From Planctomycetaceae bacterium (GTDB taxonomy: Bacteria; Planctomycetota; Planctomycetia; Pirellulales; Pirellulaceae): 64,000 nucleotides of DNA. Below, piece by piece: positions 22,149 to 30,668 of this stretch. The stretch lies in the NCBI GenBank assembly GCA_018660825.1, contig JABJJO010000047.1, positions 33,566 to 97,565 of the forward strand, written 5' to 3'. Every line of letters begins with the position of its first letter. Positions within the stretch are counted from its first letter, which is position 1. The translations under genes and the position numbers were made by a program. A model generated the notes under the pieces. That model was not told the DNA's origin, did no database searches, and saw only the letters and a program-made list of their open reading frames with translations.

Positions 22149-22320
22149 TCGCAATCAATTTGCAAGAGTTGATGGCGACAACGATTTAGTAGATGAACCG
22201 AGTGTTGCATTATCTTAGGCGATGATATTGTCTCAAACTAGATATCAATGGAATGTATTTGAAAGGGAATCAGAGATAGCGGCACTTAGCGTTATTTTTG
22301 TATTTAAATGGAGTTGTAAT

Positions 22321-23481
22321 ATGAAAAGGTTACTATTTACGGGAATGTTGTTAGCTTTAGGGATGTTTGTGTTCACGCAAACAACTCAGGCCCAAATCGA
22401 ATTTAGTGAATTTACCGGTACACGTCTTGTGACTTACACGCAAGATGATGCGAATGAAAGCACGTTCAAAGATTGGGTCGGTGAAATGAATGTTGGGGCG
22501 GGACTTCGCACAAGCATGAATTCGTCTAAACCTCAAGGTGCTGCTCGTACATATGATTTCAATCTAGATAATGTTCGTTTGTATGTTAGCAGCAGTGGTC
22601 ATGACGTGATTACTTTGGAATTCAACATGGACATAAACAACGCTCAAGGATTTGGTACTGGTGCTGAAGCAGGCGAAGCTCGTGTTCTCGATGCCATCGC
22701 AAAATTCAAGCTCAGCGATGCTGTCAATATCTGGATTGGCCGCATGTTACCTCCCAGCGATCGAAGTAATCTAAGCGGACCTTACTACTTGAATGCTTGG
22801 ACATTTCCTTGGGTTCAATTTGGATACCACAATATTTTCCAAGGTCGTGATGACGGTATTTTGGCCCATGGGAAGCTTAAGGAAGGCCGATTTGAATATG
22901 CAATTGGTGCTTTTGAAGGTAAAGATGCAGCCGCAGGAAGCAATGACAACATGATGGTTGCTGGACGGCTGAACGTTAATCTTCTTGATGTTGAAGAAGG
23001 GTATTACAACTCTAGTACATATTTTGGTTCGATGGATATCCTAACTATAGGATTTGCATTCCAAAGCCAAAATGGTACGGATGTTGCTGGTGCTGGAGAT
23101 TACGATGGGTACAGTTTTGATGTACTATACGAACGTCCAACTGAAGATGGCGGTGCTATTACCGTTGAAGGTGCATGGTACGATTTCGAAGGTACTAATT
23201 CCTCCAATGATGGTAACAGCTATTTCGTCATGGTTTCACGTATGACCGGTTCGGACATTGCAATTGGCCCAGCTTCAGGCCGAGTGATTCCTTACTATCG
23301 CCATCAAAACTTTGATCGCGATGCTGGTGCTGCAACGGATAAAATTCGTAGCAACGACTGGGGATTACACCTTGTCATGAACGGACATAATTCACGTTTT
23401 ACTCTGGAATACTCAAAATCTGAGACTGTTTCAGGTAGTTCAACAGAAGACGTTCGTTTTGGGTATCAACTACAGTTCTAA
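22321..23481 (+). CDS. outer-membrane beta-barrel porin-like protein
   Basis: Signal peptide MKRLLFTGMLLALGMFVFTQTTQAQ; alternating beta-strand pattern; C-terminal VRFGYQLQF with terminal Phe. Start 22321 preferred over 22222. Confidence 0.78.
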   Translation: MKRLLFTGMLLALGMFVFTQTTQAQIEFSEFTGTRLVTYTQDDANESTFKDWVGEMNVGAGLRTSMNSSKPQGAARTYDFNLDNVRLYVSSSGHDVITLEFNMDINNAQGFGTGAEAGEARVLDAIAKFKLSDAVNIWIGRMLPPSDRSNLSGPYYLNAWTFPWVQFGYHNIFQGRDDGILAHGKLKEGRFEYAIGAFEGKDAAAGSNDNMMVAGRLNVNLLDVEEGYYNSSTYFGSMDILTIGFAFQSQNGTDVAGAGDYDGYSFDVLYERPTEDGGAITVEGAWYDFEGTNSSNDGNSYFVMVSRMTGSDIAIGPASGRVIPYYRHQNFDRDAGAATDKIRSNDWGLHLVMNGHNSRFTLEYSKSETVSGSSTEDVRFGYQLQF

Positions 23482-23554: not shown

Positions 23555-23809
23555 GCACTAAGCTCAAGCCTTGCATGTATTCTAGGCAAAGCCGAAATCG
23601 AACAAGACTTCCGGTATTATTTTTAGGAAAAAATAAACGGCGTAAACTCTTTAATAAATGACAGTTGCATTTGTTGCAGGTCTTTTTGTCGGTGCAATTT
23701 GGCACGGTATTTGCATAATGTGTTTGTTTATACAAACGTGAAATATTATGTAGCCATTGTGTTGATGGCTTTTGTATTGATTTTATTAAATGAAAAGGCG
23801 GGAAGCGTT

Positions 23810-25120
23810 ATGTTGAAGAAGATAAATTTAATGTTGTTTGCTGGGCTAATAGCCACAGTACTTTCGGTTGGTTGTAGTAGTTCTACCACGACGGAATCAT
23901 CATCAAATGAGGTTGAGCTGGAAGATATAGCAAACCAGGGCCTGACGGAAGAGGAAGTGGGATCGGTTAAGATCGGTATCCTGCATTCCCTCAGCGGTAC
24001 GATGGCGATTTCTGAATCGTCCCTAGTCGATGCAGTTCAATTGGCAGTGGACGAGATTAATGCTGCCGGTGGTGTGCTTGGAAAGACGATCGAACCTGTT
24101 GTTGTTGACCCCGCTAGTGACTGGGACTTATTTGCAGAAAAGGCCAAAGAATTGATTGTGACGGAACAAGTGGCAGTGACTTTCGGTTGCTGGACGTCTG
24201 TAAGTCGTAAGTCAGTATTGCCTGTGTTTGAGGATGAAAATGCATTGTTGTTCTATCCCGTTCAATATGAAGGTGAAGAACAATCATTAAATGTCTTTTA
24301 TACGGCCGCTACGCCAAATCAACAGTTGATTCCAGCAGCTCAATATATGATGAGTGAAGCAGGCGGCAGCTGTAAGAAATTCTATTTGCTGGGAACAGAT
24401 TACGTATTCCCACGTACTGCCAATAAAGTACTCAAGGCATTTCTCAAGAGTGAAGGTGTTGCTGATGAAAATATCATCGAAGAATACACACCATTTCACC
24501 ATCAGGAATACCAAACCATCGTTGGTAAAATTAAGGAATTCGCTGCTAGTGGAGATGCTTGTATTCTGTCGACCATCAATGGTGACAGCAACGTACCTTT
24601 CTACAAGGAATTTGCAAACCAAGGTCTTTCTTCCGTGGATTGCCCAATCATGGCTTTCTCTGTTGCCGAAGATGAATTGCGAGCCATGGATGTACCACCA
24701 TTGGTAGGCCACTTGGCTGCTTGGAACTACTTCCAGAGTGTAGATTCTGATTCGAACGCTAAGTTCATCGCAGCGTTCAAGGCCAAGTTTGGTGCAGATC
24801 GAGTTACGGATGACCCGATTGAAGCCGCATATTTTGGCGTCTACGTCTGGGCTGCAGCAGCAGAAAAAGCTGGTAGTTTCGATGTTGATCTGGTTCGTGA
24901 AGCGGTTTACGGTATGGAATTCGACGCTCCCGGTGGTCCTAAAAGGATGCACGAGAGTAATCAACATACTTTGAAGCCTGTGTACATTGGTGAAATTCTA
25001 GAAGACGGACAATTCCGAATTGTTCATGAGAGCGATGGGTTAGTATCCCCAGATTCTTATAGCTCCTATCTGCACGCCGATGGAGATATTCCAGCACCAA
25101 CTGGTGGACCCAAAAAATAG
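23810..25120 (+). CDS. urtA: urea ABC transporter substrate-binding lipoprotein
   Basis: Lipobox-like LSVGCSSS; VKIGILHSLSGTMAISESSLVDAVQLAVDEINAAGGVLGKTIEPVVVDPASDWDLFAEKA, FGCWTSVSRKSVLPVFE, LLFYPVQYEGEE: UrtA-type. Confidence 0.92.
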   Translation: MLKKINLMLFAGLIATVLSVGCSSSTTTESSSNEVELEDIANQGLTEEEVGSVKIGILHSLSGTMAISESSLVDAVQLAVDEINAAGGVLGKTIEPVVVDPASDWDLFAEKAKELIVTEQVAVTFGCWTSVSRKSVLPVFEDENALLFYPVQYEGEEQSLNVFYTAATPNQQLIPAAQYMMSEAGGSCKKFYLLGTDYVFPRTANKVLKAFLKSEGVADENIIEEYTPFHHQEYQTIVGKIKEFAASGDACILSTINGDSNVPFYKEFANQGLSSVDCPIMAFSVAEDELRAMDVPPLVGHLAAWNYFQSVDSDSNAKFIAAFKAKFGADRVTDDPIEAAYFGVYVWAAAAEKAGSFDVDLVREAVYGMEFDAPGGPKRMHESNQHTLKPVYIGEILEDGQFRIVHESDGLVSPDSYSSYLHADGDIPAPTGGPKK

Positions 25121-25276: not shown

Positions 25277-27655
25277 ATGACGATCATGCGGTTATTTGAA
25301 TTTCGATGTTTGCGCATTGTAGTGTTGTTTGCCTTGTCGCTGATCAGTTGCGTTCTCTGCGCTGAAGATGACAAATTGCGTGCTGTGATGAGCTTGGTCA
25401 GTGCTGACGACGCAGAAATACGTCAGCAAACGCTCAAAGAGTTATCCAATATTGAGGATCCTCGGATTCTTGGATTTTTGGAGGATTACAAGTTGGGGAG
25501 GTTGTTTAGGTTTGAGTCTCAACTGGTTCGGGGTGAAACGCAAAAGGACGAGAATTCTGTCAGCGTAATTCCGTTAGAAGATTTTCTCGATCGGACACCC
25601 GTGCTTGATGCGGCGGGACAACAACACGTTATTATCAAGCGAAATCTTAAGTCATTAATTGTTCCGCGTGCTGATCGTGGATTGTTGCAAAATGCAATTC
25701 TGATTCACACATTACGCTCTGGTAGTGTCAAACAACGCTCGGAAGCTGCTCAACGTCTGGGTACAACACGTCAATTGGAACATCTCCCGCTGTTGCAGAA
25801 GATCGTTGCTCAAGACAAAGCTGCTGAGGTTGTTTATGCTGCTCGGGAAAGCATCGGAATATTGCAACTGCAGGACTCTGCAGCGGAAAAGACCACGATT
25901 CTGAAAGCAGCTAAGGCACTAGGCGAGCTGAAAAGCCTGCGTGGCAAAGCGCGTTTGGAGCAGGAGTTAGAAAAAATTGACGATCGTCTTTTGCAGGGCG
26001 AGCTGATTGATAATGAAATTCGGCTGGCATTGCATACTGAGTATCAGGCGATTGAGCAGTATCATGAGCAAACATCGTTATTGAAAAGCCTATTTAATGG
26101 AATTAGCACCGGTTCTATCCTGATTTTGATTTCCTTGGGGTTGGCCATCGTATTCGGCCAAATGGGAGTGATAAATATGGCCCATGGAGAACTGGTGATG
26201 TTGGGAGCTTATGCAACCTACGTTATGCAATTAAGTTTCGGGCATACTCCGGATGATCCCAACAATTGGTTTTATGTGGCCGCCCTGCCGATGGCATTTA
26301 TAGTAGCAGCGACTGCGGGAATTTTGATTGAGTATTTTGTTGTCCGGCATCTCTATGCCCGCCCGCTGGAATCCTTGTTAGCGACTTGGGGAGTGGGGTT
26401 GATTTTGATTCAGTTCATACGAGCTGGATTTCCTTGGGCCGATTACGATAAGGCAGCATTTCTACCGAACTTTCTTTTGTGGGGAGGCTTTGGAGATAAT
26501 ATTGGTGTCAATGCACCGACTTGGTTAGTGGGAGCGTTTGAGCTGCAGCCAGGACTTGTGGTTCCCTACAACCGAGTGTTTATTATTGTTTTAACGATGG
26601 TCATCGTTGCCACAATTGCGTGGATGATGAAACAGACTCGATTGGGATTACGAATTCGAGCAACGGTTCAGAATCGTGAAACGGCGGCATGCTTAGGTGT
26701 AAAGACAAGGCAAGTCGATCGGATTACGTTTGCGATTGGATCAGGATTGGCTGGTATTGCCGGTTGTGCCTTAACGACGATCGCTGGGGTTACACCGGAT
26801 ATGGGACAAAACTACATTGTTGACTCTTTCTTAGTTGTCGTGACAGGTGGTGTTGGCAAACTTGCTGGGACGGTATCTGCCGGCGGGGGTATCGGCGTGG
26901 TGAATACTTGGTTGGAGACGACAACATTTGGCACAGGGCTGTTTGTAACAGGATTGTTAATGCTTGTAATTGGTAGCGTTGTTCTGATCCGCAAGGTCAG
27001 AAGTTTGAAACAGATGAGCTCTTCGCCTGCTGCTGATTCGCTGCCGTGGTGGAAGCGTTACTACCTGGAAAAGAGCGTTGTTAAAGCAGTTGTAATTTTA
27101 GGCATGGGAGTGATTCTGATGGTGGCTGTTCGCGCCACAGATACTAATAATTACTTATTTATCTACGACGAAGATGTTACCGTCGATGTTGACGATGCGT
27201 TGGTGTTGGTCGATAAGCAAGGCCGATTTCGCATATTCGATTTTATGACAGAAGAGATGCAGGAAAAGTCCGAGTTCCATGTGCCAATGGTTCTAGATCC
27301 AGCAGATTTATCGTTTCGACAACGGACGACCGATATGATCGTGCAGGCAATTAATAGTCAGAATGATTTTGCAATCAGTGCATCATCTAGTGGAACGCGA
27401 ATCGCTCTAGCAGGCGTTGCTGAGTTGAATTTTTCGGATGACATGAATTGGCTGGGTATTGCGGAAAAAGGAACAGAAGGATTTCGTGCAGTACCTCCCA
27501 AATCGACTCGAGAAATTCCTGCATCGACGCGTATCGGTGCAATTCCAGTGCGCACAATTTGGGCCAAAGTACTAATACTCGTGGTAGTCATGGTATTTAT
27601 TCAATGGCGACCGGCTGGGTTATTTCCCCCCCGTGGGAGATCCGCTGATGTCTGA
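25277..27655 (+). CDS. urtB: urea ABC transporter permease UrtB, enlarged, with an insertion before the last TM
   Basis: SLFNGISTGSILILISLGLAIVFGQMGVINMAHGELVMLGAYATYV and C-terminal VLILVVVMVFIQWRPAGLFPPRGR; 792 aa with N-terminal HEAT-like region. Confidence 0.92.
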   Translation: MTIMRLFEFRCLRIVVLFALSLISCVLCAEDDKLRAVMSLVSADDAEIRQQTLKELSNIEDPRILGFLEDYKLGRLFRFESQLVRGETQKDENSVSVIPLEDFLDRTPVLDAAGQQHVIIKRNLKSLIVPRADRGLLQNAILIHTLRSGSVKQRSEAAQRLGTTRQLEHLPLLQKIVAQDKAAEVVYAARESIGILQLQDSAAEKTTILKAAKALGELKSLRGKARLEQELEKIDDRLLQGELIDNEIRLALHTEYQAIEQYHEQTSLLKSLFNGISTGSILILISLGLAIVFGQMGVINMAHGELVMLGAYATYVMQLSFGHTPDDPNNWFYVAALPMAFIVAATAGILIEYFVVRHLYARPLESLLATWGVGLILIQFIRAGFPWADYDKAAFLPNFLLWGGFGDNIGVNAPTWLVGAFELQPGLVVPYNRVFIIVLTMVIVATIAWMMKQTRLGLRIRATVQNRETAACLGVKTRQVDRITFAIGSGLAGIAGCALTTIAGVTPDMGQNYIVDSFLVVVTGGVGKLAGTVSAGGGIGVVNTWLETTTFGTGLFVTGLLMLVIGSVVLIRKVRSLKQMSSSPAADSLPWWKRYYLEKSVVKAVVILGMGVILMVAVRATDTNNYLFIYDEDVTVDVDDALVLVDKQGRFRIFDFMTEEMQEKSEFHVPMVLDPADLSFRQRTTDMIVQAINSQNDFAISASSSGTRIALAGVAELNFSDDMNWLGIAEKGTEGFRAVPPKSTREIPASTRIGAIPVRTIWAKVLILVVVMVFIQWRPAGLFPPRGRSADV

Positions 27656-29888
27656 TTTAAATCTACTGCCAAAATCTAGTCGTGTGACGGATATGCTTGA
27701 TCGCGGCACGGCCGTCATTGATAGCAGCACGCGTGTTACCGCAGTTTTGGTGGCTTTGGTGCTGATACCATTGTTGTGGGCAAATGGAAATATCGAGATA
27801 TCGACGGTTAATATGTTTGGTCGTTATCTTTGCTTTGCGTTGGTTGCCGTTAGCCTGAATTTGTTATGGGGTTACACGGGCATGCTCTGCTTGTGCCAAT
27901 CGCTCTTTTTTGCCTTTGGCGGTTATGCGATGGGGATGTTCCTAGCGCATCATGGTGGTCCAGAAGGAATCGTGGACATTAATAATTGGAAAATGCCCGC
28001 TTGCTTGTACCAAACGTATCCAGGGCAAGTTGGCGAGTCTGAAAAGGATTGGTTAGTCCCTACTTTTTGGAAGCCCTTTTACTGGTTTAGTTCAACGGTC
28101 GTGTTGGGGTTATTACTGCCAGGATTGTTCGCAGCGATTGTTGGATTTTTTGTTTTCCGCAGTCGAGTAAAGGGCGTATTTTTTGCCATTCTCACTCAGG
28201 CTTTAACGCTCGCTGTTTGGCTCGTTTTTAACATGAACGAAACGATGCTGTGCGGAACCAATGGTCTTACGCGTTTCGAATCGGTGGGACCGTTTACTCC
28301 TGAGAATTCTGGTAGCCAATGGACATTGACGCTTGTTGTCACGGGGATATTGAGTGTGCATAGTTATATGCTGATCCGGTGGTTAACGAACACCGTCCGC
28401 GCTAGAAAATTCGCTGTTGAAAAGCACCCTCGCGCAAAAAAACTATTGTTACTGGGGCTTAGTATTGGGATGGCGCTAGCTGGGGGAATGTGGTTTACGG
28501 ATAATGTGACGCGCCAATTTGATTTATATGATCAATTGAAAGACGAACGCGTCCAATTGATTCTGTATATTGCCTCGACCGTTGCACTGCTTGATGTTTA
28601 TTTGTTCTGTCGATATTTGATTCAATCCCGTATTGGTCGAGTCCTAATCGCCGTGAGGGACAACGAACAACGCTTGCGGTTCACAGGCTACAAGCCCTAC
28701 GTATTTAAAGTATTTGTGTTTACCGTTTCCGCCATGATCGCTGGCTTGGCTGGAATGCTGTACGCACCTCAAATGGGAATTTTTACTCCGACAAACCTCG
28801 AAACAAAAGAGTCCATCTTGGTTGTCATTTGGGTTGCCGTTGGCGGTCGCGGAACGTTATCCGGACCCATCGTCGGCGCTCTGTCGGTTAACCTGCTATA
28901 CAATTGGCTTACTAGCGCAGCACCCGATACTTGGCCATTTGTGCAAGGGGCATTGTTTATCTTAGTCGTCCTGGTGATGCCCAACGGCTTAGTCAGCATT
29001 TGGTCATTTTTGATGCGAACCAAACAGCGATTAGGCCAGCCAGATATGTCGCCGTTCGATGTGACACAGCATGCCATAAAAGTAGATGATGCTGCCGATC
29101 GATTGAGTCGCATTGCAACCTTACAGCGTCATCAAACAGACTCGGAAGAAATTCAAGCGGAAATACTCAACGTTGAAAATTTGTCCGTCGTGTTTGATGG
29201 CTTTAAAGCGTTGGATATTGATAAGTTCACATTACAACATTACATGCTACAGGTAATCATTGGACCCAACGGTGCTGGTAAAACGACATTCTGTGATATT
29301 ATCAGCGGTAAAACTCGTTGTACGAGCGGTCGTTTGGAATACCAGCAGCAGGATATTACGAAGCGAGATGAAGCCGCAATAGCGAGAATGGGAATTGGGC
29401 GAAAATTTCAGACGCCGTCTCTTTTTGATAGTCTGACAGTTTACGAAAACATGGAAATTGCGTTACCGAACTGGCAAGGCTTGGGTAGAAATCTTCTCCA
29501 AGATACTTCCACGCAGGAAGACCGTCGTATATTGGAATTGCTGCATCGTGTTGGATTGAACGATCAACGTGATCGACAGGTTAAGTATTTGAGTCATGGG
29601 CAACGGCAATGGCTGGAAATCAGCATGTTGATTCTTTCTGATCCGGTATTATTACTCGTGGATGAACCCGCAGCGGGCTTGACTGATGAAGAGACTGTTT
29701 TGACGGCTGAATTGCTGCTAGAACTGCAGTCTGACCATACGATTATCGTGATCGAGCACGATATGGATTTTGTGAGATTGCTCAATTCGCCAGTTCTCGT
29801 GTTGAATGAAGGTAAAGTTATGGCGTCTGGAACTATGGCAGAAGTACAAGCAGATGAGCGCGTTGTCGAGGCGTATTTGGGTAGATAA
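27648..29888 (+). CDS. urtCD: fused urea ABC transporter permease-ATPase (UrtC-UrtD)
   Basis: UrtC-like permease (VAVSLNLLWGYTGMLCLCQSLFFAFGGYAMGMFL...AVGGRGTLSGPIVGA) continuous with an ABC ATPase (GPNGAGKTT, LSHGQRQWLEI, LLLVDEPAAGLT). ATG 27648 overlaps the urtB stop. Confidence 0.93.
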   Translation: MSDLNLLPKSSRVTDMLDRGTAVIDSSTRVTAVLVALVLIPLLWANGNIEISTVNMFGRYLCFALVAVSLNLLWGYTGMLCLCQSLFFAFGGYAMGMFLAHHGGPEGIVDINNWKMPACLYQTYPGQVGESEKDWLVPTFWKPFYWFSSTVVLGLLLPGLFAAIVGFFVFRSRVKGVFFAILTQALTLAVWLVFNMNETMLCGTNGLTRFESVGPFTPENSGSQWTLTLVVTGILSVHSYMLIRWLTNTVRARKFAVEKHPRAKKLLLLGLSIGMALAGGMWFTDNVTRQFDLYDQLKDERVQLILYIASTVALLDVYLFCRYLIQSRIGRVLIAVRDNEQRLRFTGYKPYVFKVFVFTVSAMIAGLAGMLYAPQMGIFTPTNLETKESILVVIWVAVGGRGTLSGPIVGALSVNLLYNWLTSAAPDTWPFVQGALFILVVLVMPNGLVSIWSFLMRTKQRLGQPDMSPFDVTQHAIKVDDAADRLSRIATLQRHQTDSEEIQAEILNVENLSVVFDGFKALDIDKFTLQHYMLQVIIGPNGAGKTTFCDIISGKTRCTSGRLEYQQQDITKRDEAAIARMGIGRKFQTPSLFDSLTVYENMEIALPNWQGLGRNLLQDTSTQEDRRILELLHRVGLNDQRDRQVKYLSHGQRQWLEISMLILSDPVLLLVDEPAAGLTDEETVLTAELLLELQSDHTIIVIEHDMDFVRLLNSPVLVLNEGKVMASGTMAEVQADERVVEAYLGR

Positions 29889-29972: not shown

Positions 29973-30668
29973 ATGTTGAGAATTGAACAACTAAGCTTTT
30001 CCTATGGATCGATCAGGACGTTGCGCGAAGTGGACATGGTGATGCAGCCCGGCGAGGTAACATGCATTGTTGGTCGCAATGGCGTTGGGAAAACGACACT
30101 CCTAAAAAATATTATGGGAGTCCTGAAACCCAATAGTGGGTCGATCACGGTTGATGACCGAGTAGTAACGAATATGACGGCCTACAAACGAGCGAGAATT
30201 GGGTTGGGCTTAGTTCCCCAAGGGCGGCAGATATTTCCCCGCATGACGGTCGAAGAAAACTTGTTCGTTGGTCTGGAAGCGTCACCCGTACCAACTCGTA
30301 AGATTCCCGAGTTTGTTTATGATTTGTTCCCGGTTTTGCAAGAAATGAAGGTTCGCATGGGAGGTGACCTCTCGGGCGGGCAACAACAACAATTGGCGAT
30401 CGCAAGAACGCTCGTCGGTAGTCCTAAAGTAATGTTACTTGATGAACCAACTGAGGGAATTCAGCCAAATATTATTCAGTACATCGGCCAGGTGTTACAA
30501 AAACTTGCTCGAGAACAAAATATGACCATTATTCTCGTGGAACAGTACTTAGATTTCGTGCATGAATTTGGCGATCGATTTTATTTGATGAATCGCGGCA
30601 AGTCGGTCGCCGGTGGTACTACCGACGAGCTTACCGCTGAGCTCACGAAGAAATATCTTAGTGTCTAA
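29973..30668 (+). CDS. urtE: urea ABC transporter ATP-binding protein UrtE
   Basis: MLRIEQLSFSYGSIRTLREVDM, GRNGVGKTTLLKNIMG, LSGGQQQQLAIARTL, MLLDEPTEGIQPNIIQ. Confidence 0.94.
   Translation: MLRIEQLSFSYGSIRTLREVDMVMQPGEVTCIVGRNGVGKTTLLKNIMGVLKPNSGSITVDDRVVTNMTAYKRARIGLGLVPQGRQIFPRMTVEENLFVGLEASPVPTRKIPEFVYDLFPVLQEMKVRMGGDLSGGQQQQLAIARTLVGSPKVMLLDEPTEGIQPNIIQYIGQVLQKLAREQNMTIILVEQYLDFVHEFGDRFYLMNRGKSVAGGTTDELTAELTKKYLSV

Follow-up and report, generated by a model that had tools for sequence, protein, structure and literature searches.

Analysis of a 64,000-nucleotide stretch of DNA from a Planctomycetaceae bacterium (the window) revealed that UrtB, a permease of its urea ABC transporter, carries ~208-210 extra residues between the end of the permease core (aa 547) and the last transmembrane (TM) helix (aa 758). 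The insertion is real, lineage-specific and unusual, and it marks a variant of UrtB rather than a new kind of transporter. It is built in two layers, a two-helix hairpin followed by ~136 soluble residues (Table 1).

Table 1. Features of the urt locus and of UrtB, with window positions, strand and supporting evidence
Feature	Position (nt)	Strand	Evidence
urtA, substrate-binding protein, canonical order	23699-25120	+	TIGR03407, 563 bits, single stretch
urtB, 792 aa, insertion-bearing permease of the urea ABC transporter	25277-27655	+	TIGR03409, BPD_transp_2
N-terminal HEAT-like extension, aa 30-265	25364-26071	+	HEAT_2, E=1e-5
Permease core, aa 266-547	26072-26917	+	TIGR03409 match; AF2 core model
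Minor extra insertion of ~20 aa (aa 382-405) preceding the GDNIGV motif	26420-26491	+	Only in the window and L052
Whole insertion, aa 548-757	26918-27547	+	112-protein UrtB alignment; intact in L052
Inserted TM helix a, aa 551-581, contains RKVRSLK	26927-27019	+	Hydropathy 2.43; AF2 helix 551-581
Hairpin loop, aa 582-598, predicted cytoplasmic	27020-27070	+	Positive flank, +4
Inserted TM helix b, aa 599-621	27071-27139	+	Hydropathy 2.52; AF2 helix 599-621
Predicted periplasmic soluble domain, aa 622-757	27140-27547	+	Positive-inside topology; AF2; dN/dS 0.23
Beta-alpha element EFHVPMVLDPADLSFRQRTTDMIVQAINSQN, aa 666-696, similar to the RND docking/porter region	27272-27364	+	Rank 1 of 7,947; hhalign 30.6-30.9
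Canonical C-terminal helix and tail (RTIWAKVLILVVVMVFIQWRPAGLFPPRGRSADV)	27548-27652	+	Aligned in 112 UrtB
urtC-urtD fusion, 751 aa	27633-29888	+	TIGR03408, 351 bits; TIGR03411, 315 bits
Additional pair of hydrophobic helices in UrtC, aa 230-289	28320-28499	+	Site of relatives' RND-like insert
urtE, second ATPase	29973-30668	+	ABC_tran, E=2e-32

Identity of UrtB and extent of the insertion

Every segment quoted by an earlier, sequence-only reading of this DNA falls inside the single urtB ORF. By its family matches, the encoded protein is a genuine UrtB, scoring 358.6 bits against the curated TIGR03409 model over the permease core (cut-off 250.3) and matching BPD_transp_2 at E=5e-39; a PDB sequence search with the protein returned no match. 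The five-component urt set (urtA, urtB, the urtC-D fusion and urtE) adjoins urease genes, namely ureD-like, ureAB and ureC-like ORFs. This gene order is collinear with that of relatives, including the related locus L052, whose urtE counterpart is 96% identical. The position of urtB beside urease and the other urt genes fits a working urea transporter. Upstream of urtA, an ORF that is porin-like by eye (window 22222-23481) is conserved in L052, and a Pfam search with it gave no match.

Most of the protein follows the TIGR03409 pattern, sharing with other UrtB proteins the core, the N-terminal HEAT-like extension, the C-terminal helix and the urtA-B-C-D-E order beside urease. The N-terminal extension was modelled by AlphaFold (AF2) as a helical repeat with pLDDT mostly >90, its top Foldseek matches were alphaRep/HEAT structures, and it is an ordinary feature of UrtB proteins of this kind, most of the compared ORFs being 500-620 aa long. 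BtuC (1l7v_A) was among the Foldseek matches to the AF2 core, and a search with the full UrtB model recovered the HEAT-like and BtuC-like parts only. The C-terminal helix and tail are 97% identical between the window and L052. What sets the window protein apart are the ~208 residues before the last helix and a shorter addition at 382-405, where the loop spans 24 residues in the window and L052 versus 4 in all other compared UrtB.

Insert length was measured across 112 aligned UrtB proteins, one of which (L072) is truncated, by counting the residues between E547, where the core ends, and L766 within the last helix. The 106 ordinary, complete rows had a spacing of 10-19 aa; a single divergent row (L156) had 36, L046 and L047 each had 109, the window had 218 and L052 had 219. 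The large insertion just before the last TM helix proposed by the sequence-only reading is therefore borne out, and the segment, absent from ordinary UrtB proteins and conserved in a second species, behaves as a domain grafted into a urea permease. Its size had been put at about 180 residues, a figure that should be raised to ~208. The core had also been taken to end at LMLVIGSVVLIRKVRSLKQ; it ends instead near E547 (nt 26917), and the LMLVIGSVVLIRKVRSLKQ helix is the first inserted helix. The best TIGR03409 stretch covers aa 270-565 and reaches model position 275 of 291, a second stretch being required for the C-terminal helix, and the model has no positions for the ~208 extra residues or for loop 382-405. 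The separation of core and C-terminal helix, which are not nearly adjacent in the window, is a length trait lying outside the curated TIGR03409 definition.

An assembly or frameshift artefact was also considered. Nothing was found in its favour, and L052, a contig of an independent metagenome-assembled genome (DTSG01000147.1, Planctomycetaceae), encodes a UrtB 89% identical to that of the window with the whole insert in frame. The probability of an artefact is negligible, and sequencing or assembly error was ruled out on this basis.

UrtB is present in 6 of the 242 genomes of the family, and the insert in two of these, both of the window's genus. Within that genus the urt operon is patchy, UrtB occurring in 2/9 genomes (the window's own included). 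Searches for the insert in viral contigs and in 393 genomes of the phylum revealed nothing convincing beyond its own genome. Among the closest counterparts are the hairpin-bearing UrtB proteins of L046 (genome G696) and L047 (G572), from another family of the same class, which carry 99 extra residues with two hydrophobic helices at the same insertion point. The first inserted helix of L046 resembles that of the window (0/1000 shuffles did as well), whereas the L046 and L047 inserts are half as long between the fixed points and lack the soluble domain. In the UrtB tree, the window, L052, L046 and L047 fall in one supported group of 11 rows whose inner order is not settled, and a clade uniting the window and L052 with L046 and L047 was not rejected (AU p 0.55). 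The hairpin may have been gained once, with the domain added later, or gained twice.

Anatomy and predicted topology of the insert

The sequence-only reading had described one extra hydrophobic segment followed by a soluble stretch; the soluble stretch holds, and the number of extra helices is two. Helix a is predicted to run from the periplasm to the cytoplasm, with the RKVRSLK motif at its predicted cytoplasmic end, and helix b is predicted to return from the cytoplasm to the periplasm. The soluble part is predicted to lie in the periplasm because a basic stretch (net +4) follows helix a and the C-terminal tail is cytoplasmic, and the positive-inside rule and the AF2 helices agree on this side.

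The AF2 model of UrtB was computed from 46 sequences, two of which cover the soluble part. The N-terminal HEAT-like domain and the core were modelled well, and both inserted helices reached intermediate values (pLDDT about 61-75). In the soluble part, pLDDT was mostly <50; locally, two strands (641-645 and 651-655) and one helix (678-693) were modelled. The insert modelled by itself gave a pLDDT of 47.6. Such values could suggest that the soluble part is only a disordered tether or spacer. However, since two sequences cover the region, its low pLDDT is uninformative and does not constitute evidence of disorder. Moreover, the stretch is free of low-complexity sequence, shares 83% identity between the two species, and shows regular strands together with a helix in the predictions. 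We consider a disordered tether very improbable.

RND docking-like domains in UrtC and a possible counterpart in UrtB

The first pointer to the nature of the soluble part was provided by UrtC. In six related loci (L046, L047, L048, L051, L151 and L152), UrtC carries an insert directly after the GTNGLTRF motif, and a profile of the six inserts matched residues 193-274 of CusA, the docking region, at E=4e-6. The L048 insert alone matched ACR_tran at E=4e-4, and the UrtC-insert profile, built without RND sequences, matched the docking region of 24/33 planctomycete RND pumps. These comparisons make it well supported that the periplasmic UrtC inserts of the relatives are RND docking-domain-like. 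The docking region, also called the DN or funnel domain, is a modified form of the ferredoxin-like porter fold (PMC8277102). At the same site, the window's UrtC instead contains a pair of additional hydrophobic helices; homology between this hairpin and the UrtB hairpin of the window was considered and not accepted (33/1000 shuffles). Other rearrangements of these permeases were also observed, namely ~200 extra residues with four predicted helices that join UrtC to UrtD in one ORF in L046 and L047, and fusion of UrtB and UrtC in one ORF in L153 and L154 (972 and 1011 aa).

For the soluble part of UrtB, searches against Pfam, NCBIfam and the PDB gave no family match, and ACR_tran (PF00873) did not match the insert at E<=10. 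A similarity to RND proteins was first spotted by eye and then tested, as was a second motif, Flagellin_IN. The RND profile was made from 24 pumps whose collection did not depend on the UrtB insert, and L196, which had been found via the insert, was left out as biased. Against this profile, the window insert ranked 1 among about 3,000 shuffles and 1 of 7,947 when real protein windows were included; the insert of the congener L052 alone ranked 5. In hhalign, the UrtB insert scored 30.6 against RND (probability 55%), rising to 30.9 (68%) with the UrtC inserts added, versus 23.1 for the best of 150 column shuffles and 16.8 for the best of 71 real two-species windows. The similarity spans 28-32 residues, a single beta strand with a single helix, beyond which the alignment is unconvincing; when the UrtB insert was compared directly with only the UrtC inserts, no significant similarity emerged. 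The likeness to the RND docking domain (CusA, AcrB, PF00873) extends over the length of the UrtC insert in the relatives and to one beta-alpha element in the window UrtB, whose domain has no match to the remaining RND fold and sits in an importer, not in a trimeric exporter. Taken together, these profile comparisons are suggestive of a relationship between the soluble part of UrtB and the RND docking domain.

Alternatively, the soluble part might be a Flagellin_IN-like unit or a planctomycete giant-protein repeat (beta-alpha-beta-beta), serving as an adhesion or surface-type anchor rather than as a docking site. The segment TTDMIVQAINSQNDFAISASSSGTRIALAG fits the Flagellin_IN motif, hhalign gave 20.4 versus at most 14.8 in controls, HMMER placed the matches at ranks 1 and 2 of 7,947 windows, and the organism's own genome encodes giant ORFs with a similar repeat. 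Against this stand an hhalign probability of 14%, compared with 55-68% for RND, the lack of a Pfam match of the insert to Flagellin_IN (PF07196) at the gathering threshold, and the ranks of 99 and 148 of about 3,000 that the giant-protein repeat profile of the same genome gave the UrtB insert. This alternative appears decidedly unlikely. As to the giant proteins themselves, a 5,907-aa ORF with Flagellin_IN-like repeats lies upstream of the window on own-genome contig C200 (219-17939; L175), and similar giant ORFs are found on contigs C188 and C141.

A candidate UrtA platform and the wider pattern in the clade

An accessory or regulatory role of the insert, as first suggested by the sequence-only reading, is plausible. 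As the best-supported of the readings considered, to which we give an even chance, we propose that UrtB gained a membrane hairpin and a periplasmic soluble domain that contacts UrtA for docking or regulation. A TM hairpin and then a small soluble domain would have been gained in the periplasmic turn before the last UrtB helix. The soluble domain would project into the periplasm where the UrtB-UrtC pore opens towards UrtA and could offer UrtA a further contact for docking or regulation, as MalF P2 does for MalE, and the added membrane hairpin would hold this periplasmic platform in register near the site where UrtA delivers urea. The recognisable element of the platform may be an RND docking/porter-type beta-alpha unit, as in the UrtC of close relatives.

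The maltose importer offers an analogy in that MalF P2 is a large periplasmic domain in an ABC importer permease that contacts the binding protein, a contact that we propose for UrtB. MalF P2 belongs to another transporter class and is inserted at another point. According to titles cited in PMC3328499, the P2 loop reportedly interacts with MalE throughout the cycle and communicates substrate availability. A precedent for an AcrB-porter-like domain in ABC proteins is the periplasmic Porter subdomain of MacB/FtsX (Type VII) (PMC5985334). MacB itself is a mechanotransmission exporter of another fold, whose Porter domain is attached to stalk helices, unlike the domain in UrtB.

The chief rival to a UrtA platform is a tolerated embellishment, neutral or structural and at most stabilising, that arose at a permissive periplasmic turn in a clade accumulating insertions in its urt permeases. 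Indeed, many unrelated insertions occur in this clade, including the TM hairpin in the window UrtC, the RND-like UrtC inserts of relatives, the four additional helices that link UrtC to UrtD in L046 and L047, and the 382-405 loop of UrtB. Comparison of the window and L052 also revealed that the insert evolves faster than the core: dN/dS is 0.06 in the core, compared with 0.32 in the hairpin and 0.23 in the soluble part, and the N-terminal domain gave 0.22. Nevertheless, the soluble part and the N-terminal domain have equal values, far below 1, and the insert has stayed in frame since the divergence of the two species. Purifying selection acts throughout UrtB, the insert included, and we regard pure embellishment as possible, if unlikely.

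Changes in the same operons extend to the binding protein. In L046, L047 and L048 (genomes G696, G572 and G605), UrtA is circularly permuted, with its C-terminal ~108 residues (RVTDDPIEAAYFG...PAPTGGP) placed at the N-terminus after a lipoprotein-like start and followed by the canonical N-terminal part. Accordingly, TIGR03407 matched the L046 protein in two stretches, with model positions 1-270 at residues 185-456. UrtA is canonical in the window, L052 and L049, and 16 canonical and 3 permuted forms were found among those checked. The presence of permuted UrtA in the same operons of three relatives suggests that the partner surfaces have been rebuilt on both sides.

Descriptions of UrtB and the LivH-type permeases present them as compact membrane cores. 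RND docking-like domains can evidently move into ABC importers, as is clear in UrtC. A broader and quite speculative reading, to which we give little probability, is that the importer of this clade recruited RND docking-type domains, in UrtC or UrtB depending on the species, as a periplasmic collar that keeps UrtA positioned above the pore or connects the transporter with an outer-membrane porin. If true, such a collar would be the importer counterpart of the RND funnel. The combination of RND docking-like domains with a permuted UrtA in the same operons is more interesting than the UrtB insertion by itself, and a clade with periplasmic domains in its urt permeases provides a natural experiment for studying the recognition of a binding protein by its permease.
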